A DNA stretch of 22,474 bases from Physcia stellaris (taxonomy: Eukaryota > Ascomycota > Lecanoromycetes > Caliciales > Physciaceae), in contig JABSSW010000118.1 of NCBI GenBank assembly GCA_018902385.1, forward strand, positions 1-22,474, given 5' to 3'. The position numbers and the translations under genes are program-made. This document shows positions 3,001 to 22,474 of the stretch, one piece after another; position 1 is the first letter of the stretch, and each line of letters starts with the position of its first letter. The notes beneath the pieces were generated by a model. The model searched no databases and was not told the origin of the DNA. It saw only the letters and a list, made by a program, of their open reading frames with translations.

Positions 3001-3083
3001 GCTTCTTATTCAGACCGGTTTGCAATCTTTTAGCCCCTCTCAATAAATAGTCACCTCCTATATACTCCAGGCAGCAAGACTAA
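1..3083. other. Intergenic region with no supportable gene
   Basis: About 3.1 kb of ordinary base composition at the left edge. The longest open frames on either strand (25-360 minus, 586-927 plus, 2496-2750 minus) are short, start without supporting context, show no domain I recognise and do not join through plausible GT-AG introns into a longer protein. A perfect 52-bp tandem duplication lies at 2022-2125 and a 10-bp palindrome TACCTAGGTA at 1629-1638. CC and GG dinucleotides are frequent here, so the C-to-T mutation seen on the right side of the window has not touched this part. A lineage-specific gene or non-coding RNA cannot be excluded. Confidence 0.5.
2022..2125. repeat. Perfect 52-bp tandem direct duplication (two units)
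   Basis: Units 2022-2073 and 2074-2125 are identical over all 52 bases, beginning CCTGCATCCGGCTCAATCAC; one further base also matches at 2126. The flanks differ. Perfect identity in non-coding DNA implies a recent local duplication, or an assembly artefact. No coding role is evident. Confidence 0.95.
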
Positions 3084-3779
3084 TTATAACTCAGCCAAAC
3101 CCTCGCCTTCGACGTATTCCGCGCCGTAATACTCCCTTCTCAGTCCATCCATCCCTTCCGTATTCCCGTTCAAGAGCTTGCTCATGTATCCTTCAACCAA
3201 CATCACATTGTCCGTCCATCGTTCAGCCTTGGCCTTAATTCCTTCAACTTGCTTTATCTTCCGTTCCACCTCCTCTGGATCATTGTCGGCATAGCCAGCC
3301 AGCTCCTTCCTCAAAGCCTTGACTTCTTCGGACAGAACCTCTTCCTTAGTGATCAGCATCTCCCTCTCGCCTTCTTCTTCTCCATCGGCTCTTTGCGCCC
3401 TTGCCGCTGCTACCTTCTCCTCAAGCTCGCTGACAGCTCTCGTAGCACCCTCCAATTCGGCTTTTAGTTTCGCTAGCTCAGATGTGCGAAGAGCGGTTTC
3501 TTCAGAAGCGAACGACCAGTACCAGTTACCGCTGCCGATTTTTTCGACATGGATTTTTCCATCATCGGATAGGGCTTGCAGATACTCTTTCACTTGCATG
3601 CCGTTGATTGAAGCAACAGAAGGGAGGGATTTTTCGAGATCCTTGAGTGTGTGCGCTGTGAGTGAATCGCGCAGGTAGGAGAGGACGAGGGCTTGTTTTG
3701 CTGATGGTGGGAGTGATTTTGGCGCCTATAATGATACAATCAGAAAGAAAGACAGAGCATATGACCATCAACGTACCAT
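3084..3779 (-). CDS. MND1: Meiotic nuclear division protein 1 (Mnd1), Hop2-Mnd1 complex subunit
   Basis: The coding sequence is complement(3084-3725, 3777-3779), 214 aa. Exon 1 is only the ATG (3779-3777). A 51-bp intron (3726-3776, GTACGT...TATAG) follows, and exon 2 begins GCG CCA AAA, giving MAPKSLPPSAKQALVLSYLR. Residues ~5-75 form the winged-helix DNA-binding domain, with the family motifs LKDLEK (~28-33), the VKEYLQ-L-DDGKI stretch and IGSGNWYWSF. Residues ~75-170 are a charged heptad coiled coil, the part that pairs with Hop2. Known family role: with Hop2 it stabilises Dmc1/Rad51 filaments and promotes strand invasion in meiosis. Length fits the family (human about 205 aa). The reading frame is intact, unlike the two genes at 5.3-7.9 kb. 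The next gene lies upstream on the same strand, 605 bp away. An internal in-frame Met (3599) is a less likely start because it would delete half the winged helix. Confidence 0.95.
3726..3776 (-). other. Intron 1 of MND1, directly after the start codon
   Basis: Read on the minus strand, the donor is GTACGT immediately after ATG and the acceptor is ATTATAG before GCG. A CTGAT element about 15 bases upstream of the acceptor can serve as branch site. Removing these 51 bases joins ATG to a frame encoding the full winged-helix domain. Retaining them leaves no good Met for that domain. Confidence 0.85.
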
Positions 3780-4384
3780 GGCTGGCAGTTAGCTACCACT
3801 GGCTAGCCTTCTTAGGAGCCTTGAGATCTGTTCAATAATGGTTCCTCGGTGGATAGATTGAGATGACAAAATGGATTTAGGGTTAAGCGAGACGAATTAT
3901 TTCACGAAGCCGAGAGGTTCAGGATGAGTAAAGCAGCTTTCCGATCACGGTTCTTTCGAGCAAGAAGATGCGAGCTGAGAAAATACGAATGGGAACAACG
4001 GTTTATTGAAACCATGAGATCATCAAGGAGATAGGACTCTGTTTCCATCGCCTATTGCGCTCTTCGACAACAATAACCGACTTACCGTACGATGTGATTC
4101 CTTTGACCAGTTGTCTCGGAAACTTTATGACAGGAAGCCGAAGCCACCTTGTCGGTAGGATGACCTTCGAGAACCCTTGGCGCTGTTGGGTTATTAGAAT
4201 AATTCTCTGCCCGACCAGAGTAGAATATACTAGCTTCATCGCTGGAGTACTTGTCGATCTCGGCTCTTCAGATTGGCATAGAATAAGCCATATGTCAAGT
4301 AGATAGGATAGTTACATTCCTCTCCTCAGGATGCGACTCTGTCGAGCTACGGCTAGAGGGTAATGAATTGACATGGCACGTCAA
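3780..4384. other. Intergenic region upstream of MND1
   Basis: 605 bp between the MND1 start and the stop of the next minus-strand gene. It should hold the MND1 promoter and the 3' end of the neighbour. Short open frames on both strands (4003-4239 minus, 4055-4306 plus) overlap each other and show no recognisable domain. I see no tRNA, repeat or convincing promoter element. A single TTAGGG-like hexamer near 3879 is not a repeat array. Confidence 0.5.
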
Positions 4385-5064
4385 TCATTTTGGTGGGTGC
4401 CGAAGCTTCCTTTTCTTGTGTCTTCTTCTCTCTTTTGATTCATTATCAGTTGATGGCTCTGCTTCCTCGGGTTCTTGAGCAGGATCCCGCAAGCCGAGCC
4501 TTTGGACGTCCGGTTCACCATCATGGTCCGAGATCTCCTCGCCTTCGACGAGGGCTAAGTCGCCTGTTTCGCCAAGAATGTGTTCTGCAGCTTCTTCGAG
4601 CAAGATGCCGACAGCCAATAGTGCTGTTTCGTCCATGCTCCCAAAGCTGACATCTCCCTGAGCACCGAGGGCACTTTCGTAATACTCGGAAGCGTATATA
4701 TGCACAGCTTTCAGCAAGTCGGTGTCAGGTAGTATCTGATCCTGTTTCAGATGTCTATGAGCCCAATATATATCATCCTCTTCATATCGGACAGGCGCGC
4801 GGCTACGTCGAAACAAAACTTCATCGGGCGGGACAGGAAGAGAGCTTGATGTAGCTGTATCGCGGGTTGTAGATGTGTATGGGGTATCAGGTATAAAGCG
4901 CTGAGTTGAGACGCGCCCTTATATTGTCAGGTTGGTGGTCGATCGAACAGTCATGGTCCATCAAGCTCACCGGCAACTGCATCGTAGACGGTGGCGTTGC
5001 GCTTGCTAGAGCCGACAATAGTCTGGCCATTTTCGGCAAGGATCTCGCCTTCTTTGGAGGACAT
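4385..5064 (-). CDS. RRN10: Rrn10-like protein, probable subunit of the RNA polymerase I upstream activation factor
   Basis: The coding sequence is complement(4385-4917, 4971-5064), 208 aa, frame intact. Exon 1 starts ATG TCC TCC (5064) and encodes MSSKEGEILAENGQ...; a 53-bp intron (4918-4970, GTGAGC...CTGAC...AAG) splits a Gly codon. Residues ~78-145 are the conserved core: DDIYWAHRHL, ILPDTDLLKAVHIYASEYYE, then SMDETALLAVGILLEEAAEH. From memory of yeast Rrn10, the pattern I-PD-DL--VH-YA followed by DET-L---G-L-E is shared; this is recognition by eye, not a search. The tail is acidic, then strongly basic (KERRRHKKRKLR), a likely nuclear localisation signal. In yeast, Rrn10 belongs to UAF, which binds the upstream element of the rDNA promoter. 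It is divergent from the CSA gene with 217 bp between starts. The gene structure is more secure than the function. Confidence 0.62.
4918..4970 (-). other. Intron 1 of the Rrn10-like gene
   Basis: 53 bp. Donor GTGAGC and acceptor ATAAG on the minus strand, with a consensus CTGAC branch site 10-14 bases before the acceptor. Without splicing, the downstream frame meets TAA just upstream of its first sense codons. With splicing, exon 1 and exon 2 join in frame (GCC G|GG CGC). Confidence 0.85.
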
Positions 5065-5281
5065 GATGCTGTAGGTTTGCTACAATTGTCTTTTGGTATC
5101 AATGATCCTTTGAATTGAAATAATACCTTAGTATGTCGTTTGAAAGACCACTGCAAATGAGAAGCTCGGACTTTACGGTTTTAAGTCTTCACCTAGAAAC
5201 CTCAAGCTCTTGAAGAAAAGAACCTCGATCTGCAAAGTCAAACTCGCTCGTTGGAAGCACGAAAGCGCAACTATCTAATGT
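5065..5281. promoter_or_regulatory. Shared divergent promoter region (Rrn10-like / CSA)
   Basis: 217 bp separate the two start codons, which point away from each other, so both promoters must sit here or extend into the neighbouring gene. I recognise no specific factor site or clear TATA box. The call rests on gene arrangement only. Confidence 0.5.
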
Positions 5282-6739
5282 ATGAATTCATATCTCTTTG
5301 GGCGCGCGCTGGGTACTGTCAGTTCCCAATCGCTGCAGCGCGCCCATTGTGTTGGACTTCTGCATTCAATTCAACCGGCCCCGGCAATTCGATTCGATGG
5401 CAGCGATGGCCAACACCACCATGGTAGTCTCGAAGGATACTGTCTTGGCTCACAAGGCTGGCGTAAACTGCATCACCATCGACAAGTTCGAAGGAAGATA
5501 GTATGGGCTTCCCATAGCCAATCAAGTTGCAAGCTGACGTTACCAGTCTGCTTTCTGGAGGGGCTGAATCTTCAATTAGCCTATGGGACCTCGAGACCAT
5601 CAGGAATGGTTCGAAGCCAGGGTATCTATCATCCTATGGGTTCTGTTTGAGAGGTACCTATGTGAATCCAGTTTAAATCGTTGTCTGCGCTTATCCGTGT
5701 ACAGATCCAAGTCGACTGCATCAATTCAGGATAATCCATCTCCTCCTTCTACCCTTTCGACTCCCTTGCATTCCTCTCCTCCTCGTATGACCACTCATTG
5801 AAGATTTACGACAGCCAGACTCTCGGTCCTTCAGCCTCCTTCGACCCATTCCGTGGTATACTCCCATGCGCTCTCCCCTATAGCGGATCACTTGCTAGTC
5901 GCTTGCGCTACGCAGCATCCTGCGGTCAGGTTGGTGGACTTACGAACTGGTGCAGCCGCACACTCGCTATCTGGCCATCAAGGCGCGGTTCTTTCGGTGG
6001 CTTGGAGTCCGGAGCATGACCATATCCTGGCTGAGTGGAGGGTCTGACGGAACTGTAAGACTTTTGGGATATTCGGCGCAGCGCAGGCTGCTCGGTGTGC
6101 TCGATATGGAAGATTCTGTGGGAGTCTTGGGAGAGGATGGACTTGGAACGAAAGCACGACCACTGGGACAGGGTAAAGCGCACGTCGGAACTTGCAATGG
6201 CGTGGTCTGGACTGGACGGAAAGCACCTGTTACTACCGGTCACGACGAACGAGTGAGGGTATGGCATACTGATAGTGGCGCAAACGCCTCTATCTCATTT
6301 TGGTCCAATCATCAAGAACACAAGAGCTCCATCCACTCTTCTTCCTCTGATCGCGCCCGGATATGCCTCCTCTCCTGGAGGTCATATCATGTTCTACCCC
6401 AATGAGAAAGAAATCTTAACTTTGATCTTTTCGAAGGAACACTGCTCAAGCGGCTCCGAGACCCCAACGCTGCCTATTCCCATGGTAGTGGCAGTGCTGG
6501 ACGAAATGTACGAAATAGAATAACCTCATTGGCCTGAGAGCCGCTGGTGATGTTGAGATGTACTCTGCCCATTCCGATGGGGTCATCCGAGCGTGGAAGC
6601 CTCGAACAGCAGAAGAGGTTGAAGCCGATAATGAGGAGGCGGAAGGCGCACAGGAAGAGTGAGAGTAGAAAGAGGAAAAGAGAAGCGCTTAATGACGTCT
6701 TCCGAGATTTTGACAAAACAGAAGATCACGTTCACTTAG
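5282..6739 (+). CDS. CSA: CSA/ERCC8-like WD40 repair protein, reading frame broken by about 15 single-base indels
   Basis: The protein reads across all three frames, about 450 aa when followed by homology. It starts MNSYLFGRALGTVSS (5282). Recognisable blades in order are: HKAGVNCITIDKFEGR / LLSGGAESSISLWDLE (split by intron 5501-5546); SFYPFDSLAFLSSSYDHSLK; VVYSHALSPIADHLLVACAT; HPAVRLVDLRTG; SGHQGAVLSVAWSPEHDHIL; SGGSDGTVRL; GHDERVRVW; and the tail RKRKREALNDVFRD ending at TAG 6737-6739. This matches the fungal CSA family, the WD40 substrate receptor of a CUL4-DDB1 ubiquitin ligase in transcription-coupled nucleotide excision repair. Frame changes fall near 5390-5440, 5618, 5647, 5742, 5850, 6033, 6063, 6090, 6214, 6229, 6299, 6422, 6536, 6655 and 6709. 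Many are one base more or fewer in runs such as TTTT, GG or CC, and some compensate. Conserved residues survive, so sequencing or assembly error seems likelier than old decay, but a pseudogene is possible. Confidence 0.85.
5501..5546 (+). other. Intron 1 of the CSA-like gene
   Basis: 46 bp. Donor GTATGG, branch-like GCTGAC, acceptor TACCAG. Splicing joins GGA AGA TA to T CTG CTT and rebuilds the WD40 motif EGRYLLSGG. The unspliced frame hits TAG at the donor. Confidence 0.85.
5654..5704 (+). other. Probable intron 2 of the CSA-like gene
   Basis: 51 bp from GTACCT to GTACAG. It lies between the segment IYHPMGSV and the segment HQFRIIHLSFYPFD, where family members continue without a break. A frameshift just upstream (about 5647) makes the exact phase uncertain. 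Confidence 0.6.
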
Positions 6740-6763
6740 GCATCTTTTGGCGGAAAACTCCAT

Positions 6764-7895
6764 TCACATGATCTGCTCTATTCGCAGCAAGCCTTCGCAG
6801 GAACCAGCTTCTGCTTCAATCTGGCCTCCAGACTCGATTCGATTCTTCCACTTCCGAGCCTCGCCTCTGGCCAGGATTATGGTCATCCGCAAGATGGGTA
6901 AATGCGTTTCAGACTCTCGGAGTTGCACCGTTGAGCCATTCACATAGGAAGAGAGGCCGTTCCCATTGGCGTGAAGTTCCATCGTCGAAGGCCCAGTTGA
7001 GTATATAGTCTTGCAGTCGTCTGTCCCTGACGCACCATCGCCGCCTCAGCGTTTTCCTCAGAGGAGGCTGGGGGACGAGAAGCCGCAACAATTGCTTTGA
7101 TACGGTAAATCTCATCCTTTGGAGCGGACAACAGGAAAGTCTCTAGCGTTTCAAGGTTTACTGCTGACGTTTTGCCTCCTTTAGATGACAGCGTGACGGA
7201 GAGTACCTCCACTTCGCTCTGGTGATCGGCCTTGTGTTCATGGCTATGCGCTTTCTTGTACATCAAGTGGTGCCTGCAAAGTTATGTCTTTCGCCAAGGT
7301 GCTGTCGAGGCCCAGTAGGAGACTCATATCAACACGCCCACGATCAGACTTAACATTAGCAATCTGAAGCTCGAGGTCTCAACACGATCCAAGCAGTCTT
7401 CGTATCTCCTCTCATCAACATGCTCCCTTGTTGAAAACAATCAGGTCTGTGTACCTGGCTTGCATTTTTGGCTGTATAGCTCGTATCCTCATATCCCTTC
7501 CAATTCTCCACATCAATAACAACAATCACACCGTCGAGCGCAAAACAACCCGTCTCTCTCCCCAACCTATTGACCTCCATAGCCAAAGTCGCCGGAAAAG
7601 CACTTCCGCTGGTCTCAATGATGATGCGAGCTGGCTTTACATCCTTGCGGAGAGTCTCAAGGGCATCTCCAAGCTGACCAACGAGGTTGCAGCAGATACA
7701 ACCGTTCAGGAGCTCTTTGACACCAGAGATTGATGACGAGGAAGCAAGCTGGGAGTCGATAGCTACATCACCGAACTCGTTCTTCAGGAGAGCGAGTCGG
7801 TAGTCCTTGGGCAGTTGCGGGATCAAATTCAGTATTAATGTGGTTTTACCCGAACCTAGAAAGCCTGTGATTATGGTGATTGGTATTGAAGTCAT
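6764..7895 (-). CDS. CobW/P47K-family GTPase (zinc-type metallochaperone), 3' half broken by about seven frameshifts
   Basis: The frame from ATG 7895 is intact for about 143 residues. It shows Walker A GFLGSGKTT (11-19), the metal-binding CxCC motif in NGCICCN (Cys66, Cys68, Cys69), the ETSG segment and VIVVIDVENW. Beyond that, homology hops between frames: MQARYTDLIVFNK and EHVDERRYEDCLDR (~7465-7390); IANVKSDRGRVDMSLLLGLD (~7365-7310); a His-rich HSHEHKADHQ loop (~7245), typical of metal binding; SEVEVLSVTLSS; APKDEIYRIKAI; DYILNWAF (~7010); WNFTPMG; and the tail GEARKWKNRIESGG...LLRIEQIM ending at TGA 6764. The family are GTPases that deliver metal (zinc for the eukaryotic ZNG1 type, cobalt for CobW). 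Frame breaks fall near 7466, 7428, 7380, 7255-7300, 7025, 6988 and 6970; the first is an extra T in a T5 run. It converges with the CSA-like gene, 24 bp between stops. Its promoter abuts the AT-rich block. Confidence 0.85.
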
Positions 7896-8170
7896 TTTTT
7901 CAGTAAATTGATTTTCAGCGGTTTCGATTTCTGAATTTGCTCGGTATTTTTTCTCGCTATTTCATAATTCAGATCTTCATTTTGTTTTTGTCGAGCTTAA
8001 TCTGTCGAGCAATACAGATAGAATTTACGAGCACAATGAAGTTTAGTCTCAGTTGGCTCTCAGCTTCACGCTTATTCCGATATTCCTTTGCCCGCTGACT
8101 CTGCAGCCAGTTCTGGGGTTAGGGTTCTATAATTTTTAGTGCGCGGGAAGCAAAGCTTGGCATTATTCTG
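7896..8170. promoter_or_regulatory. Promoter region of the CobW gene and edge of the AT-rich block
   Basis: About 275 bp upstream of the CobW ATG. Positions 8040-8160 keep normal composition with CC, GG, CT and AG steps. From about 8170 onward these nearly vanish. No specific regulatory site recognised. A single TTAGGG at about 8118 is not part of an array. Confidence 0.4.
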
Positions 8171-11004
8171 ATCAATAGAATCGCTGAATTTCTTGTTTTC
8201 GAATTGATTTATTAACATACATCGATTCGAAAATTTCAAAAATCGCATTTTTGATTTTCTAGATTTTTCACATTTTTTTCGTTTTCGTTTTGTCAGACAT
8301 TTCATGAAGCTTTTTTCAACGTGAAATCGATATTGCAAATCGTCGTTTCGCATTTTAAACATGCAAAACTGATTTGAAAAAGACGAAACGAATTCATTTG
8401 ATTTTTTTATCATTGAAATTTATTTTCAATGTTTTCGTTTCGAAGTGACATTTTCATTTTGCTTGCAAAGTTCGCAATACTTTTTCTCGTTTATTTTTTT
8501 GATATGATGATTAAATTTTTTAAACATTTTTTTCGTGTACATGATCATGTAATCGAACGTGTAAAAAAAAAAAATGTTTTTTTCAACGAAACAAATGAAT
8601 TTCGTCGATTGACAGAATTTTCGAACAATTTGATTGCAATTGTGCGTTGAAAATCGAAATGAATCATAATGATTTTCGAATTCAAAAGTTTGTAAAATAA
8701 ATAGAAATTGACTACAGAAATCATTAAAATTGATTCATGATTTTCATCAAAATTTTCGATTTCTAATGACAATAAAAAAATAAATCGTTTTCGTTTGTGC
8801 GTTGTTGTCGATATCATTCATGTGTTTGTTGTATTGTCGTATAAATTTTGAAAAAAAAAATTCGAAATATATATTTTTCGATGAAATATTCTTTCGTTTT
8901 ATCGGATTTTTGTAAAATTTATCGTCGAAATCTTGAAAAATATGAATCGTAATGAAATATTGAATCGTGAAATTGTTCTGAAAAACAACACAAAACGTTT
9001 GATTTTTGTGATCAACGTTTGCATTTGATTTTTTAAAATTTGTTGTTGTAAATATTAACGTATTTCAATCAATTTTTTTCAAAATGTTTCGAAATTTCAA
9101 CAACGATGTTGAATAATCGTTTCGAGCTTCAATCGTATCGATTATATCGTATCGCGTTGTTTCAATTCGACGAGATCAATTTTGACGCCGCTTAAAAAAT
9201 TGTTCAAATCAAAATGTAATTTTCGACGTTTTGATGAAAAATATTTTCGATTAATTGAGTAATCACGCGAGCAAAATCGAAAAATTGATTTTTTTGAATA
9301 CAAATATGTTTAATTTTTGATTGATTTTCAAATTCTGTAACGTCAAATTTCTTTGAAAATGTAAAAAAAGTTCAGCAAATAACTATCGTCTGTTATATTA
9401 TAATATTTGCGATTTTTTTTATCGATTTTCACATTCAACTTCAAAATGTGTACATTACGAATTTTACACATGTTCAACGTTTCGTCAACAACAAATCAAT
9501 TAGACGAAATTCAATATTTCAAATTAGCGAAACAGAAATCGCTGTAAAAAAAATCGAATTTTCGATATCATCGAGAATTTTTGTCGTCGATATCATCGTT
9601 TGAATTGTTGATTTTCAGAAATCGTTTAATATTTTCGAATCGATTCAAAAACATAGCGTTTTGACGATTTGTACGACAAATCGATCGTTAAGGAAATTTC
9701 AATACGTTTCCACGACGTTTACAGTCGCAAAATTCATAATTAACAAACGTCAATAAAACGCACATTTTCTGTTTTTCGTCGACGTTTTTTCAAAAATCGT
9801 TGAATTTGATTTTCATTTAATTTTTGAATTTTCGTTTCACGTCGAAAATTGCATTGCGATTTGTATGTTCGATTAACAACTCGACGTTGATCATGTTGAA
9901 ATAAAAATCAACATTCATAAAAATCGTCTCGTATAGTTTCGGACACGAAATCAAATTTAACGAATTTTTTTTGCAATTTGCAATAATGTATAATCGTTTG
10001 AAAAAGAATAAATCATGCAAATCACGCAAAAATTTTTTTCGAATCGATTTTTTTTTCAGATTTTTATCAATTTTCGAATTTCGAAAAATTTATTGCTTTT
10101 TTTTTTTCAGAAATTTTCGTTCGTCAATTCTCATTTTAATCAAATATGTTAATTATTATGATTACAAAATCGTCAAATATGCAAAGAATAAGCAAATATA
10201 ATGTATATAAAATGTAATGTGCAAAAATATCGAAATGAAAATGTGAAAAATCAAAAAACAAACAAACAGTTTCATTTACATGTGTCAAGAACAATGTGTG
10301 AAAGAATGTAAAAACTTGATTGTTAATTTTCGAAAAAGTTTCGAAATATATATTGTAAAATTATGTGACAAATTTTGTCATTGCTATGCAGAAATACGAT
10401 ATTATTTTTCGAGAAACGACAGAGCACGTTTTTATTTCAGATTTCGTCATTGACAATCGTCAAAACAGATTTTCGTCTCATAGTACGTCGTCACAATTAA
10501 TAGCCAAACAAATTTTCGTTTTTTATCGACAAATTAGTCGACAAATTTCTAACAATTTGTTTCAATCAAAATAAACGACATCGTTTCGATATGCCAACAA
10601 TGTTTTTTTTATATCATGTCAAAAATATTTAGTCATATTTTTTTCTTTTCATTTTTTATTTTTCAATGTTCGAATAAAATCGAAAAATCAAAATATCAAT
10701 TGCAAGTCGACGATGTCGATTTTGACGAAATAAAATCAATCGACGATTGACTTTCGTCGCTGAAAAATTCGATGTCAAAAATTAACGACAAATCGTGTTC
10801 GATTTACGTAAAATGACAATTGCGAAAGATTTGTTGATGATTGACGACAAACGTCGACGTCGAAAAATTTTAAAAGTTTTTAATTGAAATAACGACGAAA
10901 AATTTTTTGATCGAACGTTTAGTCAATTTTGATTAACGATTTGTCAAAAGATTTTTGCAAACGATCAAACAGAAAAATCGTAAAACGTAAAACGTTTTCG
11001 TAAT
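8171..11004. other. AT-rich mutated DNA with no identifiable content
   Basis: About 2.8 kb left of the chromodomain end of the Gypsy element. The element's downstream LTR would be expected here, but I could not find a copy of the 17987-20908 repeats or any TG...CA pair by eye. Open frames (8072-8413, 8545-8817 and 9817-10029 minus; 9971-10201 and 10365-10574 plus) show no domain. It could be 3' untranslated and LTR sequence mutated past recognition, or another element. Confidence 0.4.
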
Positions 11005-11145
11005 TTTGTAATTAAATTCAACGTTTTCGAATTTTGAAAAATTTCGTCATTTATCGAATTGCGAAGAATATTCTTTTCAACGAACAAAATATTCAAAATC
11101 ACGACGTTTGATTTGACGTTTATTGATAAATTTTTCAATTTTTCA
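11005..11145 (-). pseudogene. Chromodomain at the integrase C-terminus
   Basis: On the minus strand the frame reads KIEKFINKRQIKRR, EYFVR*KEY, QFDK*RNFSKFENVEF. This is the chromodomain pattern Y-IE-L---R ... EYLVRWKGY ... --EW---L-NA, with both stops at the aromatic-cage and core Trp positions (TGG to TGA). Such a domain targets insertion to chromatin carrying particular histone marks, usually heterochromatin, which fits the element lying inside a repeat block. Confidence 0.75.
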
Positions 11146-11239
11146 TGAATTTTATTCGATTCGTGTTTTTTTCAACAAAACAAAATCTGATTGATTTGAA
11201 TAAACGATTGAAAAATCGTTTATTTTGATAAAAAAAAAC

Positions 11240-12468
11240 AAATTTCAATCAATTATGAATAAAACAAAATGTATACGTCAATGCGTAAACAAATTTCAAA
11301 TCGATAAAACAGATTGTCAATTTTTTCAAAAATTTTGAAAAAATCGAATATTGTTGATTAAATTTCGATTCAAAATTTCAATAGATATATCGTATTCATG
11401 ATATAATCGAATATAAACGTCAATTTTCGAATTTCATAGAACGATTGATGTTTTCGATTATAATAATATTTGTTGATCATTTGAACGAAAACGATAATAT
11501 CGTCAATCATTTCAAAACGAACGCGAAAATGCATTGAAAAAATTTTTACGAAAAATTTTTATTTTATGATCGATTTTCAAATCGTCGACGAAATCAAATG
11601 TAACGAACTTTCGAAACATGTTCAAAAATTGATTGACGTAAAATCATAAAACGATTTCATTAGAAATTTTGTCGAATAGTGACAAAATGATCGAATTGTT
11701 GAAATGACGTTGCAATCACAAACAATACATTTGATTAATCGACAAAATTTTTCATAATAATCAAATAAAATCGAAAACAATTTCAATAGTTTGATTAATG
11801 CGCTCATTTTGTTCGTCGATTTGAAAATGATATGTTGTCGAATACATAAGTTTTATTTTCAATTTTTCGAATATAATCGTTCACATATCGAAGAAAAATT
11901 TTCGATTTCTATTCGAAATAATGATTTTTGATAAATTTCAATTTGCAATATTTAATCGATCGAATAACGCGATGTTTCATTTTTTGACGAATCAAATTTT
12001 TTTGTCAAAAATAACGAAATCACGTTTGAAAAATTTGCATGACAATGATATAATCGTATCAAATTTTTGACGCGATAAAAACAAAACGAAAATGAAATTC
12101 AAAATAACAATGTGAAATAAAATCGAAAAAATCAATATTAATTGCAACGAATCATAAAACGCGTGTCGACGCGTTTGATATATTTGACATTGAAAACAAT
12201 GTTTCAAATAATTACGTAAATATCGTGACAAATTTCGAATGTAATAAAATGACGAAATTTTCTCGAAACATTTGACATAGTCAACGTGATTATCGTCATG
12301 AATTAATCGCAAAATATTCGAAACGATCGAATACGATATGCACAATCGACAAAATTCGTAAACATGATCATCAATAATAATGTTTTCAAAACGAAAAATA
12401 AAATTTTTTTTTTTATAAAAAGAAAGATTAGCGACGTTTTCGCTGTTCAATTCGACATTTTGATTCAA
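11240..12468 (-). pseudogene. Integrase of the Gypsy element
   Basis: The N-terminal HHCC zinc finger is complete: H-x3-H in HDDNH (12300-12286) and C-x2-C in HCFQC (12198-12187), followed by YQTRRH. The catalytic core follows with frame interruptions; YH-Q-DEQ-ERINQTIEI (about 11836-11779) is the conserved YHPQTDGQSERTNQT block. KISNEIV (~11660) matches the GKSPNE block. The C-terminal domain reads YYYNRKHQSFY (~11475) and FKIFEKIDNLFYRFEI (~11330). The catalytic Asp-Asp-Glu residues were not each located. The protein inserts cDNA into the genome. Confidence 0.85.
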
Positions 12469-12614
12469 AATGTTGACAATCTTTTGTCAATTGAAATTCG
12501 TTTTGTAATCATTCAAAATGCGTTGTTTAAAAGCGAAATTCATTTCGACTAATGAAACAATGAACAGAACATCAAATTCGTCTTCAACGTGATTAAACGA
12601 ATTGATGTTGACGT

Positions 12615-13270
12615 TGATTAATTTGAATAAAACATTCGACACGATATGTTGTTTGTTTGATTTGTGACGTATTTTCAAATTAAAACGTTGTATGTAATCG
12701 AACGTTTTGATTAATCGAAAATTCAATTTGTCGATCGATGAAATAATAAAAATAATTTAATTAGCGATTTTCAATGTTGCGTCGTGATCGATGTAAATAA
12801 TGTTTTTATTTGAAATTTCAACAATATGACGAGTTTTTTTCAAAATTCATACAATGTCAACAATTTCAAATTTTGTTGATCAATATTTTGATTTCGCGTT
12901 AATGATAAAACGATTGAAAAAAATATCGATTCGATTGCGTGACGCGAAAAATATTTGTTTTTCAAATTATTTTTTAGAAAAATTTTTTAACATAATACAG
13001 CATGATTTCGAAGTCAAATTTTTTGTTGACATTTAAATCAATAAATAATGATCGTTTGATGTCGACGTGAATCAAATAAAAAAATTTTGACAACATGATT
13101 TGCAAAATTTCGAAAAAGACTATTTTTAACTCAATTGAATTTTTTAGTCGAATTTTGATCGAGTAAAATTTTCGAGCATTGTCAATTGTGAAATCATAAC
13201 GCAAAAATTCGATTTTACGATTTTGAAATGATTTGAAAATGTCAACATAATAAAACACGTAATTTCGCAT
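12615..13270 (-). pseudogene. RNase H domain and connection of the Gypsy element
   Basis: 13270-12974 encodes the connection (RNYVFYYVDIFKSFQNRK, matching R-YVPYYADISKPLQ) and the start of RNase H (LIHVDIKRSLFIDL, where relatives have LYVDLDAS). It continues through a segment with stops at two predicted Trp positions, then YIDHDATLKIA and DKLNFRLIKT, ending with NLKIRHKSNKQHIVSNVLFK (12726-12618), the conserved RHKPGKQHIVPDALSR end. One stop (IAN*) is at a predicted Gln, a CAA-to-TAA change, which is exceptional here. Confidence 0.85.
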
Positions 13271-14056
13271 TCAATCGATCAAATTCAAATAGATTTCTAA
13301 TTGACGTAAAGTACGTGAAAAACGAAACTTCGATATTGTTTTAAGTTTTTTCTCAAAAATAGTCAGATCAAATGAGTCAACTTTTTGATTTAGAAATGAA
13401 ATCGACGAATAATCAAGAAAAGTTTTCGCAATCTTGACGAATATATTATTTTCGATTAAAACGATGAAAACGCGTCGCAAATGAAATTCGTGTTTTTTTT
13501 TATATGTGAAAAAATCACGATGTCATCGACATATGCGCGAGCGAATTCGCGAAACGTACGAAATAATCGATTTATTTGACGTTGAACGTATGTTGATGAA
13601 TTTTTGTAATTCATTATTGTCACATTGAAATTTTTTTGATCTCGATGATTAACAACGATGAGTTTATGTTTGTCGATCGAATTTATTTTTCATTGATAAA
13701 AGAAAACAAAGCAATCGATGACGAATATATATTTGCAATCGCGAATCAAAATGAAAATATTTGTTTGAAATGACAAAGAATAAACATTTGATTGAATGAT
13801 GACATTGAAATCACGAATGTCGACAATTATTCTATTTTTTCGTTTTTTTTCAACTGTTTTTCAAACACAAAAAATCGAAAAAAAAAAACGTTGATTCGTT
13901 AATTCAAAACAACTCGTCGATACGATGAAACTCGTCGAATGTCTGATCGACTAGTTCGCGATTTTTAATTTTTAATGAATATATTTTGATTTTGTCAAAT
14001 ACACGCGTTTTTCAATCAAATTTGAATGATATACGCATTCATTTGTTTTCAAACAT
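13271..14056 (-). pseudogene. Reverse transcriptase domain of the Gypsy element
   Basis: The domain reads almost entirely in one frame. Fingers: NRELVDQTFDEFHR then INEST. Palm: RIIVDIRDFN, DCKYIFVIDC, KLIVVNHRDQKNFNV, YVQRQI, and the catalytic YVDD at 13533-13522 in FARAYVDDIVIFS, all four residues intact. Thumb: the segment 13480-13271 with RTLRQLEIYLNL. Stops occur where relatives have Trp, for example in the finger region before INEST, in CV*K, and in YQ*K. It would copy element RNA to cDNA. The catalytic residues survive only because their codons lack the mutated CpC/CpT contexts; the gene cannot be translated through. Confidence 0.9.
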
Positions 14057-14441
14057 GTTAACAAAATCGATGTCGTGTCATAATGTTGAAAAATCGTTGA
14101 CGATTTTGACGCAAAAATCAACAATATTCGATTCAAAATTGTAAATAATGACGTCGTTGAATAACACGATTTCTGACGAGTTAAAAACATTTGTGAAAAA
14201 TTTTTTCAAAATTGATTTGACGTCGAACGTGAAATCAAAAAATGACGCGATTGAAAAATCAAACATTGTTGACGTAAAAAACGACATGAAAACGTTGATT
14301 AAATTAGAAAAATCGATGAATGTTGTTTCGATTTTAATAACGACAACAATTACATAAATTGTAACGCAAACAAAAATGAGTTTTTTAAATCATTCATTTG
14401 TATAAGAAGTTTTTGATTTTTTAATCGCGAAATGTCTGACG

Positions 14442-15080
14442 TCATTTGAATTTTTCAATGTGAAAAACATTAGAAAAATTTAATTCAAATACACGATTTA
14501 GTCGATAATTGCGTGATATTTTGACAGAAACATTTTTATCGTTGCGTATCAATATAGCAATAATGTTGACGTCAATAAAATGAATATATATGATCAGTTT
14601 CGTGTTTTTTGATTCGAACAAAAAATCGAAAAAAACAAATAAATTGACGTTGTGAATCGATACAGTCATTTCAATATGCGACGAAATAATAGCAATTTTT
14701 TTCAAATATATTAAACGTTGAAACAACATTTTTGTTGATTTCATTTCGATAGAAATTGAAACGTCGATATTTTCAATTATAGTTTGTTTAATTTTTATAT
14801 CAATAATGAATTGTTCAGCGTCGATGATATCATTGTCAATTAACATGTTAATTTTGAAATTGTTCACTAAGTGAATTTTTCGCTGAATAAACGAGATGAC
14901 ATTTTTGTCATTTTTCGATTTTGACAAATAGATGTCACAAACAACATATTTTCATGTTTGATGACGATTCGTGCTCAAATCACGAATTTGCAAAAGAAAA
15001 ATCATAATTCGAACGAAAGTATTTGAAATCTAAATTTTGAAAAACGTACGATTTATCAATAAAACGTCGACATCAATGTT
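14442..15080 (-). pseudogene. Retropepsin-like protease remnant and linker to RT
   Basis: 14927-14442 is one open frame with HLVNNFKINMLIDNDII, which corresponds to the fungal Gypsy protease C-terminal pattern HLVDN-K--MLIG-DI, followed by the linker containing FLFES and YIHFIDVNIIAILIRND. About 50 codons upstream, at 15074-15066, the frame reads D-V-D ahead of VLLINR; this is where the catalytic D-T/S-G should be, the Gly apparently changed to Asp by G-to-A. The active-site assignment is tentative. The enzyme would cleave the Gag-Pol polyprotein. Confidence 0.6.
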
Positions 15081-15386
15081 TAAACAAACATTTGTTGATT
15101 CGACGATTAACGAAAGAAACATTTTAGTTTTAGCGTAATTTCAATTTTTGAAATCATAATCGATATCGACGTCAAAAGCGAAATTGACGTTGAAACGTAA
15201 AATAGTTTTCTCGAACAATGAAACAATTGACGAAATCGATGTCATCGATTTGTGCGAATCAAAATCTTTGATAATTTCGATAGATAATACGAACACGACA
15301 GAATAAACAATTTCGAATTTCGATTTTTTTGAAAAATCAAACGAAATCAAAATCAATTGTGAAAATTTTTTTCATATTGATTTTGA

Positions 15387-17185
15387 TTAGCGTCGAGCAA
15401 TTAGCACGAAAATATCGATATAAATTATTATTGAATTGAAAAATTTTTTACAATGACGACAACGAGATTTTGACGTCGTCGCAAAAACAAATGAAATGAA
15501 ATTAACAATTTTTTCGTCATTTTGATCATTTGATTCGTAATATGTGAAATTTTCGTCATCAACGTGATAATTTTTTTGTTTTTGATTTTGTTTTTCGTGA
15601 AAATTTTTTTCAAATTCAAATTCATTTTTCTCGTCGACAACGTATGTTTTGATTTTGTCAACACGATTATCGAATTTTTTTTCGTTTGTTTGAAAATCAA
15701 ATTTCGTTTTCGTTTGATTTTTCGAATTTAATTCGTTTTCGAAAATCAATTGCAAAAATTGTTTGACGAATGACAAAACGATTGCAATTGAAACAAACTT
15801 TTCGACGAAAAATTGATATTGATTTTTTTGATTTTGATAAATTGAATTTTTGAATTGATACGAAATGTAATCAAATGAAAATTATTTTTCGTATTGTTTT
15901 GAATAAGAATAAAAAAATTGAAAATCGTTGACGTCAAATTGTTGTTGATAATCATTTTGTCGTTCTCGATTTTGTTTATTAAATCGATTAATTCGATCAA
16001 CATTGTTGTTAAAATCAACGTCAAAATTGTTAAAATCACGTTGACGAACGATCATATTCATTCAAACATTTTTTTTAACGTTCAATTGAATCAAAAAACT
16101 GAATAAAATAATATTTTTCGTTGATTCGAAAATTTGCGTTCGAAAATCAAATTCAAAATTGTTTCAAACAATGATACATTGATGAAAAACGAACGAATAA
16201 TCAACAATTTTGAAATATCGTAAAATATTTTGCATGTAAACACGTGATTTACGTTCACGACGAGCATCGACGTAAATGTAAAATTCAATTTGTAATTTCT
16301 TTAAAGTTACAGAATTTTTCTTTTTGAATCGTTTGATTAAATGAATGCATCAACGTTCAATCGTAATTTTTTTGAAAAAAAAATTTTCGATCTCAGTAAA
16401 CTTCGAATTGTATCAACGTAACGTTTTTTTTTTAAAACAAATAATCACAAGCTTTTTGATTTTAGAGTCAAACGTGATTTTGTTCAAATTTTTGAAATGA
16501 TCGATAAAGATGTAAACATTTCGATAAAAGTTGTGTTTTTCGAAACTCACAATAGATTGATCAGTATCGATCGAATTTTCATAATTCGAATCAAAATAAT
16601 CAATATTTTCAACAAATTTGATGATCGATTGCAAATCATTATTGTTGTTGACAAAAAAAAATGTGTCGACAACGAATCGAAATATTGAAACGAACGCGAT
16701 AATCACGATCATGATGTCATTTCACAAAGTCGAATTTATTTCAATTGACGACGAAATTGTTGAAAACATGATGCGACGAATTTTTTCAATTTGAGTGAAA
16801 AAAATGTTTGACTATTGTTAGTTTGAACGTTGATTGAATGTTCACTGTCAATCGTTTTTGACTCGATGATGAATTGACGAAAAATATTCGATTCATTATC
16901 AAAATTGATAATGAAAAAATAACTAAATGTTCGTGACGAGAAATTAAAATTACGAATTTTTGAAACGTTATTTCGTCGAAATTTCGATTTGATCAAAACA
17001 TCAAATTGATCAAAAACAATAAATTGAATGAACGTTTTTAATTTGATTACACGCGACACAAATGAAAAAATAAAATTATTAAACGTTGAATTGACAATTT
17101 CGAATCGAAACAAAAAATTGCGAAAATTTTTCGATTGTTTGAATTGCTGGATATCGACACGAAATTGATTGATAACGTTTTGCAA
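15387..17185 (-). pseudogene. Gag remnant of the Gypsy element
   Basis: Fragments in more than one frame. 16712-16413 holds the best-conserved part (DYFDSNYE, then FYRNVYIFIDHFK), matching the fungal Gypsy capsid pattern G-YFDP-YE ... FYRDVYVFVDRLKDL. 16288-16091 continues the capsid region, where fungal elements read YTFTDARR. A charged linker follows, and at about 15461-15387 a CRHC motif begins a degenerate zinc finger whose downstream ligands are lost. 17185-16736 is open but less certain, perhaps the N-terminus. Gag would form the particle that packages element RNA. No functional frame remains. Confidence 0.65.
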
Positions 17186-17270
17186 TGAAACAATGTCGTT
17201 GATTCATTGAAATGAATAAAAAAAATCACTGATTTTGATTTTGAAAAATCGAAAATTTTTGACAATCAAA

Positions 17271-17986
17271 ATTTGAATCGCACGTTGATTTTCGTTATTG
17301 AACAAAAAAATAAATTCGTGATCGATTTGACAAAATTCGTGAAGTGATCACGCAAACTGAATAATTTCACTAAAAACAAAAATCAAAATGTCGATTAATG
17401 AAAAATGTTTGAAATTGTTTTTCTAATCAAAATAATGAAATGTGAAAAGTTTTCAAAATGTGAAAAAATTTTTGAAAAGTTTTCACAAATTGATTACACA
17501 AACAGAGTTGAAAAACAGACAGAAAAAAATATTCAAACAATGATCATCGATGAAAAGTCGATCGAAAAAGATGAAATGAAAAAATCATCGAATAACAAAA
17601 TTGCGAAAACACGAAAATTCTGATAAAATAAAAACAAACAAATTAAATCAATAAAATATTTTGTATGATGATTGTCACAATACAATCAATGATGCAAAAT
17701 GACGATTAATTGTAACGATGATACTATCATATGTTGAAAACAAAAATGTGTAAAAAAAATGCATTAAAAATTATCGAGAAGTTTCGATTTATAAACTTTA
17801 ATTACATGTGAAAAAGAAATTTTTTTCGTTTTTTTCGAATGAAAACTAATCATTTCAACGAACAAACATTCAAATCAAACAGATCAAATCGTCGATAACA
17901 TTTAACAATATCGTGATTTTTTGCACGTAATCGACAAAATCGCATTTATTTTCGTTGAAATACATTTATTTCAATTAGACATCGTT
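17271..17986. other. AT-rich spacer between gag and the LTR-like repeats
   Basis: About 700 bp upstream of gag in the sense of the Gypsy element. A plus-strand open frame (17405-17623) is Lys-rich and unrecognised. The motif TGAAAAGTTTTCA occurs twice within 17445-17489. If the repeat at 17987 is this element's upstream LTR, this would be its leader, but no primer binding site (TGG...) is visible; the GG would probably have been mutated. Confidence 0.35.
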
Positions 17987-19364
17987 TGATACGAGCACAA
18001 ATAATTGTTTAATGATTGTTAATTCGCATTAAACTAACTAATTGTATTTAAGAAAATTTCTATTTTAATTAGCAATTCAATTCATTTATCATTCATTGAT
18101 ATTGATTTTTAGTAATTGATTATTTTAACAAATGATAACATCATAAATTCGATTTGTATTACGTATTTGACATCATTGATTGTCGATCGAATACGTCGTT
18201 TTATATCAAATCGAATTTGTCAACAATCAAACGCATTGTTTCAACAATTTCATCAATTTGACAAATCATAATTCAATTGTCAATTTTAAATCGTCGATTT
18301 AATTGTCGTAAAAAATCAATTTATTCATGAATTCGACACGTCATTTTCAATTGAATGAATTGACAAAACGTTCGAATCATAACGTGCGCGTTTATCAATT
18401 TCAATATCTCGTTGTCGAAAAATTTGAAACAAACGAAATTTTCGTCGCATCGATTTTACAAAACAATTTAAACAACAAAATTGTTTTTCAAAAATTTTTC
18501 GCAAATTTCAATTTAAACAATTTTACATCGACAATTTCGTTTTCAAATCAATAATCGATTTCTATCTAGTTTGCGACTTTTCATTTTGTCAATTCTTTTC
18601 GAATTTGTTAAATGACGAATCACGTCAAACGAATTTGTCGTTCGAATATTTTTAACGTTTGTTTTTTTAGCGTTTGTCTTTTCGAAAAATCTCGTCATTT
18701 TTTTCAAACAGTTTTTCGTCTTTTTCGTTCATTTTGTTTATTTATTTATGTTATTTTCATTTTTTGCATTTTGTTGTCATCGTTTATTGCAATCGTTGTT
18801 CTAGTTGACAAATCATTGTAATACATCAATTTGTCATTATATGACAAACATTTTTAATTAAACAATCAAATTGATTTCGTTTAACATTTTAATTTCGCGT
18901 ATTTCAATTCAATCAATGAACAAAAAATCGTCGTCATTGCGTGACATTTTCATAAATTTGAATTAATAAATCATTCGTTGTCAAAAACATTATCAAAAAA
19001 AAATCATTCAAACAATGATAATTTTTGTAAACATCAATTTTCGATCAACAAAATCGTCAACAATTCGAAAAATCAAAATAACGTCAATCGAATTTTTAAA
19101 ATATTCGTCGAAATGAATTATCAATATTGTTATTTTTCGAGCGATCGCGTCACGATTCTTTGAAAAAATTGAACAATACAAACAAACATTTGTTTATCAA
19201 AATTTTCAATTTAAATCAAAAATCGAAACATTTAACGACAATTCGACATTTAATGATATTTTAATCATTTCGAATCGCAAAACAATTGCATTTCAAATTA
19301 TCGTTTCACGTATAAAAAATCGATTTCGATACGAAAACGATATTTTCGTAATCGAACGAAATCA
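17987..19364. repeat. LTR-like direct repeat, copy A
   Basis: About 1378 bp, beginning TGATACGAGCACA and ending CGAACGAAATCA, so it has the TG...CA ends typical of LTRs. It aligns along its whole length with copy B (19513-20908), with many C/T and G/A differences and small indels. Landmarks shared by both are ATGAATTCGACACGTCATT (18327 / 19875), AATGACGAATCACGTCAAAC and ACGAAAACGATATTTTCG. No 5-bp target-site duplication is apparent around A alone (TCGTT / AACGT). A 75-codon plus-strand frame inside (18327-18554) also exists in B, but its differences are C-to-T type and show no sign of selection. Confidence 0.8.
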
Positions 19365-19512
19365 AACGTACGTCGATGAATTTTTGTAATTCATGACGAT
19401 CACGTTGAAATTTTTTTGATTTTTGTGATTGACAACAATAAATTCTAAGGCTTCGATCACTTGAAATTTAACTCGTTATCGATAAAAAATTGAACAATCA
19501 ATGATTGATATG
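19365..19512 (-). mobile_element. 148-bp reverse transcriptase fragment between the two LTR-like repeats
   Basis: Read on the minus strand it encodes YHISIIDC, then FIVVNHKNQKNFNVIVMNYK and NSSTYV, the same RT segment as in the main element (DCKYIFVIDC, LIVVNHRDQKNFNVTIMNYK, NSSTYV). At the DNA level 19368-19440 closely matches about 13587-13665. It is cut off exactly at the repeat boundaries on both sides; neither outer flank (below 17987 or above 20908) continues the RT. This is therefore the only internal sequence left of an LTR element on the minus strand. Confidence 0.75.
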
Positions 19513-20908
19513 TGATATTGAACACAGATAATTGTTTGATGATTGCTGTTCGCGCTAAATAATTGCTTGATGATTGCTAACTCGCGCTAAACTGACTAGC
19601 TGTACTTAAAGAAATTTTTACTTAGCTACGAATCCAATTCACTTACACTCATTGATATCGGTTTTTAGTAACTGACTAATTTAGCAAATGATAACATCAT
19701 CGATTCGATTTGTATTACGTATTTGACATCATTGATTGCCGATCGAATACGTCGTTTTTACATCAGATCGAAGTTTGTCAACAGTCAAACGCACTGTTTC
19801 AAGAATTTCATCAGTTTGACAACTCTAAATCGTCCGATTTTAAATCTTAATTGTCGTGAAAAATCAATTTACTCATGAATTCGACACGTCATTCACAATC
19901 GAATGAATTGACAAAACGTTCGAATCATAACGTGCGCGTTTATCAGTTTCAATATTTCGTTGTCGAAAAGTTTGAAACAAAAAAAGTTTTCGTCGTTTCG
20001 ATTCTACAAAACAATTTAAACAACAAAGTTGTTTTTCAAAAATTTTTCGCAAATTTCAATTCAGACAACTTTACATCAACAATTTCGTTCTCAAGTTCGC
20101 AATCGATTTTTATTTAATTTACGACTTTTCATCTTGTCAATTCTTTTCGAATCTGTTAAATGACGAATCACGTCAAACGAATTTGTCGCTCGAATATTTT
20201 TATTTTAACGTTTGTCTTTTTTAGCGTCTGTTTTTTCGAAAAGTTTCGTCATTTGTTTCAAACAGTTTTTCGCTTATTTTGTTTATTTATTTTTGTTACG
20301 TTCATTTCATTGCATTTTGCTGTCATCGTTTAACGCAATATTTGTTTTAATTGACAAATCATTGTAATATATCAGTTTGTCATTACATGGCAAACATTTT
20401 TAATTAAACAATCAAGTTGATTTCGTTTGATATTTCGATTTCGCGTATTTCAATTCAGTCGATGAGCAAAAAAATCGTCGTCATTGCGTGACATTTTCAT
20501 GAATTTGAGTTAACAAATCATTCGTTGACAAAAACTTTATCAAAGAAAATCATTCAAACAGTGATAACTTTTGTAAACATCAACTTTCGATCAACAAGAT
20601 CGTCAACAATTCGAAAAATCAAAATAACGTCAATCGAATTTCTAAAATATTCGTCAAAATGAATTATCAACATTGTTATTTTTAAAGCGATCGCTTCAAG
20701 ATTCTTTAAAAAAATCGAAAAGTACAAACAAACATTTGTTTATCAAAGTTTTCAATCTAAACAAAAATCGAAACATTTGACGACAATTCGACATCTAATA
20801 ATATTTGATCATTTCCGAATCGTAAAACAACTGTATTTCAAATTATCGTTTCACGTATAGAAGTCGATTTCGATACGAAAACGATATTTTCGTAATCGAA
20901 CGAAATCA
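19513..20908. repeat. LTR-like direct repeat, copy B
   Basis: About 1396 bp, beginning TGATATTGAACACAG and ending CGAACGAAATCA. Direct partner of copy A. B keeps more C:G pairs than A at its start (for example GCTAACTCGCGC against GTTAATTCGCAT), so it is less mutated there. It also carries an internal tandem duplication (19529-19591) absent from A. Flanks ATATG and CTACG are not a target-site duplication. Confidence 0.8.
19529..19591. repeat. 31/32-bp imperfect tandem duplication inside copy B
   Basis: Units 19529-19559 and 19560-19591 share TAATTG-TTGATGATTGCT and CGCGCTAAA. Copy A has only one unit (18002-18033). It is therefore a duplication gained in B, or lost in A, after the repeats became separate. 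Confidence 0.8.
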
Positions 20909-22474
20909 CTACGTTAGAATTTCTCGTGCCAAGTTACTTTCTATTATCGATTCAAACAATCGTTTTATTATCGATAGTCGACAAATCAGCAATAATCTGT
21001 TTATCGATAACAATTCGACTATTACACGCGAGACGTCAATCGAGAAAATCGTATACGATCATTCATAAAATTTAATTGATAATTCTCTCATGAATTCAGC
21101 TTTTCAAAGCTATCAAAACTGTCGTTAGTGTCGCCGTTATTCAGATTATCGAAAATATTAAAACAGAAATACGTCAAAAATGCAACAGATCAATCAGCGA
21201 GATCGCAAAAATCGGCTGAATCGCTCGATTCATTCATTCGTCTGAAGATGACAATGATGTGATGACAATAGTCAATTTCAGTCGAAACATTTAGACTTTT
21301 TCGACTCGTTTTCATGACGACAAATTTGTAACTATCGACGCAACTATGAAATTTATTAGCGAGAAACGTCTTTCGTGACGTTACACTGTTGTGATTAAAG
21401 CAAAAAATTTCGCTGTTACAAAAAACGAAAACATCGTACGTATGATCTTTTGTCTTTAAAGAATGACGTTTTGAACTGATATACGTCATTTCTTATCGAC
21501 ATGAAAAGAATTTCTTGCTACTAAATCAAAATTTAAATCGATGAAAAAAGTATTTAGTAAAAAAATTTCGAGAATCGTCAATAAAAGTCGTGAAAAACTC
21601 GTCAAAAAATGGTATGACAGATACGACATGAACGTGAATCTAGAAAATGCGCGCAAAAGATAATTCGATTAAACAAATCAGTTAATTGTCGATATTCAAT
21701 CAATTATTACAGATTTGAAACGAGTTCGACGTTGACTTTCATTACGTCGATAAATTTATCAATGCGTCAAACTGAATGATTTTTTACGAGATTTGAATGA
21801 TCGAAAACATTCATGATGAAAACTGACTAACAAACAATTTTTCGAACAGATTGATCGACGAAAAATCAATGTCAGGAATAAAAATATTCGCGGCAACGTG
21901 AAAATAAACAATTACAACGTGACACGTCGAAAATAGATTATCGCGATCGCGATCAGCCAAATGTCGAATATGACGACAATCTTTGTTGATAAATATACTC
22001 AGAACGATTACTTTCGATTTGACATTGTTCGACTTTCGTTTGTTGATTTTCGAATTTCGTATCGCAAAACAATTATGTTTCGCAAAATTATCTCAAACTT
22101 GAAATCAAAATCGTGTTTGCATGCCAATGACAATCGGCAAATCGATTCTCAGGCAATGCAGCAGCAGCAATCGATTTTTGTCGAGCTCTTTTGACACATG
22201 AACAATTGATCGCTGATTTCTCAAATCAAAATCAACGAAATCGGCAAAAGAAAACGCGTCAAATTCGAATCGTCGATCATTTGTATTTTTTAACGTCGAC
22301 GTTCGCTCGTTTGATCGATATATAATGCGTCGACGTCGACGACAACATCGACGATGAAAACGTTTATTATGACGACGGCGATAAAACGATATTATTCGTC
22401 TGACATATTGTCGCGAAACGTTTTGCTGTAAATCGAAGAAAATCAAAATCGATCTGGATCTGTTTTCTGAACGA
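20909..22474. other. Right flank, AT-rich and moderately mutated, no gene recognised
   Basis: About 1.57 kb. Composition is biased like the rest of the block, but CT, AG and occasional CC steps are more frequent, so mutation seems weaker. Open frames at 21190-21489 (minus), 21961-22194 (plus) and 22105-22446 (minus, Arg-rich because of repeated CGA/TCG words) match nothing I know. Near 22325-22360 the sequence is a dense run of CGA/GTC words. Probably another repeat that continues beyond the window. Confidence 0.4.

Follow-up and report, generated by a model that had tools for sequence, protein, structure and literature searches.

CpC and CpT are lost, and CpA and CpG retained, in RIP-like mutated repeats of the lichen fungus Physcia stellaris

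Repeats in the genome of the lichen fungus Physcia stellaris have been rewritten by C-to-T change on both strands wherever a pyrimidine follows, and CpA and CpG are nearly untouched. The window in which this was recognized is an entire contig (JABSSW010000118.1, hereafter C118; 22,474 nucleotides) of assembly GCA_018902385.1, which comprises 44.0 Mb in 147 contigs. It is divided into a gene-bearing flank, which served as the control, and a hypermutated repeat tract (Table 1). A first-pass annotation, made from the letters of the window, had described the loss of CpC and CpT in the tract and suggested repeat-induced point mutation (RIP) with an altered context as one possible cause. This report is focused on the composition of the tract, the direction and context of the mutation in retroelement families, and the genes and explanations that may account for it.

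Composition of the tract and its spread in the genome

The ratio of observed to expected counts (o/e) in the tract is 0.05 for CC, 0.31 for CT, 1.22 for CA, 3.18 for CG, and 0.43 for TA, versus 0.91, 1.13, 1.07, 0.86, and 0.71, respectively, in the flank. Per kilobase, CC falls from 52.7 in the flank to 1.0 in the tract and CT from 70.8 to 15.3, while CA (66.8 and 60.9), CG (49.8 and 59.8), and TA (47.6 and 56.1) stay close to the flank; the loss therefore sits at CpC and CpT, and the tract, with a guanine plus cytosine (GC) content of 27.4%, is the residue after C-to-T change at these two dinucleotides alone. The hand count given for 16681–17040 in the first-pass annotation was exact (both strands pooled, 48 CpA, 0 CpC, 44 CpG, and 8 CpT, i.e., 17 + 31, 0, 2 × 22, and 4 + 4), and its claim that CpC and CpT are lost and CpA and CpG spared extends over the whole tract, although it did not distinguish CpC from CpT, the former being lost two to three times faster. 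At the left edge the transition takes place over approximately 100 bases, CpC plus GpG dropping from 9 in the 100-bp bin at 8101 to 0 in the bin at 8201. Depletion peaks at 11–19 kb and is weaker, chiefly for CpT, at 8–9 kb and 19–22.5 kb.

Each of the four pieces of the tract used as queries (16681–17040, 8300–10800, 18000–19400, and 21000–22474) has further copies in the genome. The tract also contains remnants of a Ty3-like retroelement and a pair of direct copies (Table 1); at C/T differences before T between the two copies, the C is held 57 times by the second and 10 times by the first. In the flank, at approximately 2022–2126, a stretch of approximately 52 bases, read by eye, is present twice in tandem in unmutated DNA.

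Table 1. Features of the window and RID-like genes elsewhere in the genome
Feature	Coordinates	Strand	Basis or remark
Hypermutated repeat tract	8171..22474	.	C-to-T loss at CpC and CpT on both strands; CpA and CpG retained; reaches the end of C118
Gene-bearing flank, normal dinucleotides, control	1..8170	.	o/e ratios and densities
Reverse transcriptase remnant, Ty3-like retroelement, stop-to-stop frame	13456..13689	-	PF00078, E 1.6e-4, under the curated cut-off
Integrase zinc-binding domain remnant, same kind of element	11992..12486	-	PF17921, E 2.3e-10
Direct copy 1 of 2 (87.7% identical), more mutated	17999..19364	+	blastn of the window against itself
Direct copy 2 of 2, less mutated at CpT	19557..20908	+	blastn of the window against itself
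CobW-type GTPase exon adjoining the tract edge	7356..7895	-	PF02492, E 1.8e-36
Hop2/Mnd1-like gene part, in the flank	3084..3599	-	PF03962, E 5e-13
RID-A, RID-like methyltransferase gene (locus L011)	C5:499307	-	PF00145; known motifs and kinship
RID-B, RID-like methyltransferase gene (locus L009)	C6:791557	+	PF00145; known motifs and kinship

Spread was assessed in twenty 10-kb loci, 13 picked as matching the repeat of the window and 7 placed regardless of it, which yielded 200 one-kb bins. Of these, 150 are AT-rich (below 35% GC; median 26.8%), and none of the 150 passes both classical RIP thresholds (TpA/ApT ≥0.89 and (CpA+TpG)/(ApC+GpT) ≤1.03). The bins below 30% GC hold a total of 32 CpC plus GpG in 127 kb. 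In the 7 loci placed without regard to the repeat, 31 of 70 bins lie below 35% GC, and 29 of these 31 have at most two CpC plus GpG, whereas the gene-rich loci L029 and L030 are normal, with CC o/e of 0.83–1.09 over 20 one-kb bins. The first kilobase of contig C1 has a GC fraction of 0.32 yet a normal CpC ratio (0.96), unlike the repeat tracts, and may be a telomere repeat.

Statements from the literature refer, here and below, to the available portions of the cited papers. The genome paper reports a culture grown axenically from ascospores and a Nanopore assembly polished with Illumina reads, with a GC content of 43.32% (PMC7513301). The published assembly, 46.57 Mb in 184 scaffolds, is larger than the one analysed here, and no RIP analysis is seen in the portion available. 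Given this GC content, and with 49.5% and 26% assumed as rounded figures for the two compartments, approximately a quarter of the genome is estimated to be mutated.

Direction, context, and strand of the mutation

Two retroelement families own unmutated copies, and the direction of mutation can therefore be read. In family 1, a copy on contig C52 with 51% GC and a reverse transcriptase match free of stops (L033) was taken as the unmutated state. Relative to it, three mutated copies (L039, L041, and L042) have changed C to T at 94.5–98.6% of CpC, 80.1–87.1% of CpT, 6.0–6.7% of CpA, and 3.4–5.4% of CpG, with T-to-C change at 0.2–4.1%. By trinucleotide, the values are 95.6–98.2% for NCC, 77.9–87.5% for NCT, 5.0–7.7% for NCA, and 1.3–9.3% for NCG, and other neighbours matter little, the largest effect being that of CAC (13.5%). 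A further copy, L040, has only approximately 2.1 kb homologous to the family and was left out of the pooled trinucleotide counts; its figures, which include non-homologous sequence, are CpC 79.7%, CpT 70.6%, CpA 24.4%, and CpG 15.8%.

In family 2, the unmutated copies L043 and L044 share 95.3% identity over 4.8 kb, have normal dinucleotides, and include a pol frame of 1,151 amino acids in L043; sites were counted only where the two agree. In the mutated copy L046, C has become T at 349/368 CpC, 258/343 CpT, 9/362 CpA, and 2/366 CpG, and in the lighter copy L047 at 294/366, 144/334, 5/360, and 2/366, respectively. Change at all sites outside CpY (Y, pyrimidine) amounts to 14/2,044 in L046 and 16/2,040 in L047, CpA and CpG accounting for 11 and 7 of these. 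Because conversion at CpY is high and change elsewhere low, the mutation was fast relative to background, and it is confined to transitions as in RIP (607 of the 711 CpY sites in L046 changed from C to T, versus 14/2,044 elsewhere).

With rates taken as the negative natural logarithm of the fraction kept, the CpC/CpT ratio is 2.1 in L046 and 2.9 in L047, CpC/CpA is approximately 117, and CpC/CpG is approximately 300–540. The order of contexts is thus CpC>CpT>>CpA>CpG. Within CC, the first C is the one that mutates, as CCR (R, purine) has become TCR at 188/193 sites in L046, 165/192 in L047, and 637/682 in family 1; the 3′ base decides the target, and the 5′ base hardly matters. These directed counts bear out the proposal of the first-pass annotation that C changes to T on both strands when a pyrimidine follows, perhaps by RIP with altered context, and the two patterns that it had named as contrary, i.e., most changes at CpA in aligned families and the same depletion in single-copy DNA, are absent from L046 and from the gene-rich bins, respectively. 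Three candidate processes are ruled out: classical CpA-directed RIP by the directed counts and by the indices of the AT-rich bins, decay of CpG methylation, in which CpG is lost first, by the 2/366 in both L046 and L047, and an APOBEC-like 5′ context by the trinucleotide rates (NCC versus NCA) and the CCR counts.

The lighter copy furthermore displays strand-exclusive patches of approximately 200–400 bp, in which the top and bottom strands are changed at 0/18 versus 21/25, 1/23 versus 27/36, and 0/24 versus 23/29 sites. A third family is without an unmutated copy, and its least mutated member, L021, was used as the reference. From L021 to L018, the changes are 95% at CpC, 65% at CpT, 3% at CpA, and 1% at CpG, and from L021 to L025, 92%, 61%, 7%, and 5%. 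In L021 itself (C83:47000-53111), CpT/ApG survival is skewed over the whole 6 kb, with 9–24 CT versus 25–44 AG in each full 500 bp, which may reflect heavier mutation of one strand or base composition. For L036, another open reverse transcriptase, a second copy was not found.

Reading frames and traces in predicted proteins

CpA-directed RIP can make stops from CAA and CAG, which a CpY process cannot do, and mutated elements consequently retain long frames. All new stops in L046 and L047 (12/12 and 7/7) arose by change of TGG to TGA, and 28 of 32 in-frame stops among the first 20 of 150 matches of the reverse transcriptase search are TGA. The mutated elements lose proline and glycine while their frames stay long. 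A mutated open frame taken from L046 served as the query against a protein collection, a choice that favours proline- and glycine-poor proteins, and 120 of the 215 matches were listed and aligned to the unmutated L043 protein. Among those listed, 75 retain no reference proline or glycine, 105 retain at most two, and 15 retain more; 31 have no retained proline or glycine yet at least one tryptophan, which suggests that the genes were called with a code in which TGA stands for tryptophan. Long predicted proteins devoid of proline and glycine, some with tryptophan (P0195-P0314), resemble hypermutated transposon relics annotated as genes.

In one protein family, encoded on jgi/ncbi contigs, substitutions were counted in 44 relatives relative to P0234, which is less mutated and was taken as the reference. 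Proline has become serine, phenylalanine, or leucine at 347/420 positions and glycine has become aspartate, glutamate, asparagine, or lysine at 206/240, versus 13/606 for histidine to tyrosine, 2/107 for cysteine to tyrosine, and 22/421 for methionine to isoleucine. Arginine to cysteine, histidine, or glutamine occurs at 108/910, so some CpG change is possible, and the low values for arginine to lysine (33/910) and alanine to valine (100/718) do not resolve a CpT signal. With P0256 as the reference instead, histidine to tyrosine is 50/284. The substitutions suggest that CpC may have been lost, and CpA largely spared, in other organisms as well. Three scans of viral_contigs confirmed no DNA relatives.

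Candidate enzymes, explanations, and known systems

A profile search with PF00145 matched four places, which correspond to three genes on contigs C3, C5, and C6. The gene on C3 is DIM-2-like, with the best match to 9bap/9baq (E 4e-180), labelled DNA cytosine methyltransferase, which we take to be Neurospora DIM-2, and with DUF7893 and, under the cut-off, a BAH match. The genes on C5 and C6, RID-A and RID-B (Table 1), presumably belong to the RID type, a label that leans on known motifs and on relatedness to a protein of Aspergillus; a methyltransferase of the type associated with RIP is thus represented by two RID-like genes, Neurospora RID lying outside the comparison. The exons of both are open, RID-B reaching the last conserved motif with intron-like gaps, and the RID-A protein has a 98% match to P0075 (G7Y79_00005g016670). 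RID-A has at least 298 matches, and 29 of the 74 matches of RID-B have 60–94% identity, including one from the lichen fungus Heterodermia, the other 45 lying at or below 48%. Aspergillus DmtA has been likened to RID (PMC7862722).

In a tree built from 80 catalytic cores (of 194 proteins, 13 yielded none; P0040-P0074 were omitted; every sixth RID-A row was kept above P0103; and Neurospora RID was not included), RID-A and RID-B, with 45 and 28 rows, are split at 100/99, with long branches that meet and a bootstrap that had not settled. RID-B groups with proteins of Aspergillus candidus and Talaromyces (Eurotiales), apart from RID-A. Cytidine deaminases, for which the first-pass annotation had advised a search together with RID and DIM-2 methyltransferases, are represented by eight PF00383 matches, the best of which carries four in-frame TGA; the search with PF08210 (APOBEC) was silent, as were its controls.

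The process is probably RIP by a cytosine methyltransferase of the RID or DIM-2 kind, the target of which has shifted from CpA to CpY. It looks like RIP in being fast relative to background, restricted to transitions, arranged in strand patches, and located in repeats, and in the presence of RID-like and DIM-2-like genes. Among the candidates RID-A, RID-B, and the DIM-2-like gene, we lean to a putative role for one of the RID-like genes. The enzyme would act on homologous DNA, proceed along a single strand in patches that span a few hundred bases, and convert C to T directly or via 5-methylcytosine, and several rounds would leave DNA devoid of CpC. Since CpY is RpG on the opposite strand, reading the purine opposite the +1 base could explain the rule; moreover, a CpY site is asymmetric, such that maintenance methylation could not copy the mark, which would fit a de novo event.

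An unlikely alternative is that a DIM-2-like enzyme methylates transposons at CpY and that spontaneous deamination of 5-methylcytosine follows over time, with no dedicated mutator. The DIM-2-like gene is present, and Dim2 of Zymoseptoria tritici raises C-to-T mutation in mitosis, at CpA (PMC8016269); however, such decay is judged too slow for conversion of 349/368 CpC beside 14/2,044 sites outside CpY, and the strand-exclusive patches suggest single events. These patches would suit a DNA cytidine deaminase unrelated to methyltransferases that acts on exposed, single-stranded element DNA, and eight PF00383 matches occur in the genome. We consider this explanation less probable still. APOBEC-type enzymes read the 5′ base (CC or TC, the second base being the target), but here the 5′ neighbour has little influence and CC is changed at its first C, and the number of PF00383 matches seems unremarkable. 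A neutral bias toward A+T, decay of CpG-type methylation, or an artefact of sequencing or assembly, to which the low GC of the tract and the Nanopore reads might point, has a negligible probability, given that CpC has disappeared from DNA in which CpG and CpA are intact, that Illumina reads were used to polish the assembly (PMC7513301), and that the pattern stops within approximately 100 bases at the tract edge.

Several observations weigh against RIP with a shifted target. The CpA preference of Neurospora-type RIP, which does not enter every definition, is absent (9/362 and 5/360 at CpA versus 349/368 and 294/366 at CpC). In the third family, the more distant L022 and L024 have changes of 79% and 94% at CpC and 65% and 72% at CpT, together with 16% and 18% at CpA and 18% in both at CpG; the CpA and CpG changes are read as old divergence, because T-to-C at TpA is 13% and 12% there. 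Confinement to repeats would fit the four repeated pieces of the tract and the normal gene-rich bins, yet some duplicated DNA is unmutated. L043 and L044 are unmutated or nearly so, with 94 C/T differences before a pyrimidine and 61 before a purine, and part of the unmutated flank (2500–8100) has copies at C101:11216-16811 (96%) and C28:302284-307891 (95%), C28 being collinear with the AT-rich part of the window. Either some duplications escape the process or haplotypes were left uncollapsed in the assembly; the latter would not conflict with a repeat-directed process, whereas true duplications in one nucleus would mean that not all are caught. Finally, the traces in other organisms are at the protein level and come from a query that favours such proteins; these traces and the unmutated copies lowered our confidence slightly.

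Comparison with known systems reveals shared features and a different target. RIP in Neurospora crassa, with RID and DIM-2, likewise converts C:G to T:A on both strands of repeats to near saturation, and P. stellaris has RID-like and DIM-2-like genes; the order in N. crassa, however, is CpA>CpT>CpG>CpC (PMC5496416). RIP in Trichoderma reesei is also repeat-directed C-to-T change, with CpA and CpG approximately equal, followed by CpT>CpC (PMC5496416), such that CpC is last there and first in P. stellaris. CpT is hit, as in P. stellaris, in Botrytis cinerea, Sclerotinia sclerotiorum, and Magnaporthe oryzae, where it is linked to a RID-type protein motif (PMC4352252), and in Anisogramma anomala, although in all four CpA is hit too and the portions available do not list CpC among the targets (PMC4352252, PMC10998396). 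Change at CpT is also reported to predominate in Tad1 of N. crassa (PMC2621366) and in control fungi capable of RIP (PMC7882544). In Microbotryum and other basidiomycetes, transposons undergo dinucleotide-directed C-to-T change at CpG (PMC4352252), which is the most spared context in P. stellaris. The lichen fungus Cladonia rangiformis shares sharply bounded AT-rich transposon blocks and RID and DIM-2 homologues, with a local GC peak at approximately 16% (PMC12542154) versus the median of 26.8% in the AT-rich bins of P. stellaris; the lower GC of these blocks would imply that more contexts are hit there, the available portion of that paper giving no breakdown by context. A kingdom-wide survey reports that RIP-like defences share a CpA preference (PMC12543289).

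A CpY-only case is absent from the available portions of PMC5555474, PMC12542154, PMC12543289, PMC7862722, PMC8016269, PMC3017866, and PMC3897900, and in that of PMC9907504 RIP appears only in the reference list. Reports of RIP that prefers CpC and spares CpA were sought in the RIP literature, as far as its texts were available and excluding the 2011 survey by Clutterbuck, and none was found. The survey by Clutterbuck is reportedly the widest early one on RIP.

A wider proposal, which we hold tentatively and would sooner doubt than assert, is that CpY mutation represents a mutator aimed at repeats, which obeys a strict target rule of its own (RpG on the opposite strand) and is carried by a diverged RID-like enzyme, that several lineages share it, and that it has gone unseen because screens seek CpA-to-TpA change; its relics, in which only TGG can become a stop, would keep long frames and fill databases with false proteins lacking proline and glycine. 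Gene callers may take such relics, with new stops that are all TGA, for proteins or for genes of a code in which TGA is tryptophan. As the 0/150 AT-rich bins illustrate, one class of RIP-like decay can escape the standard indices. Most descriptions of RIP make CpA its target, and P. stellaris provides a clean case that spares CpA and in which CpC, the least preferred context in two RIP fungi (PMC5496416), is the most preferred. With a DIM-2-like gene and two diverged RID-like genes in one genome, what sets the context of RIP becomes testable.

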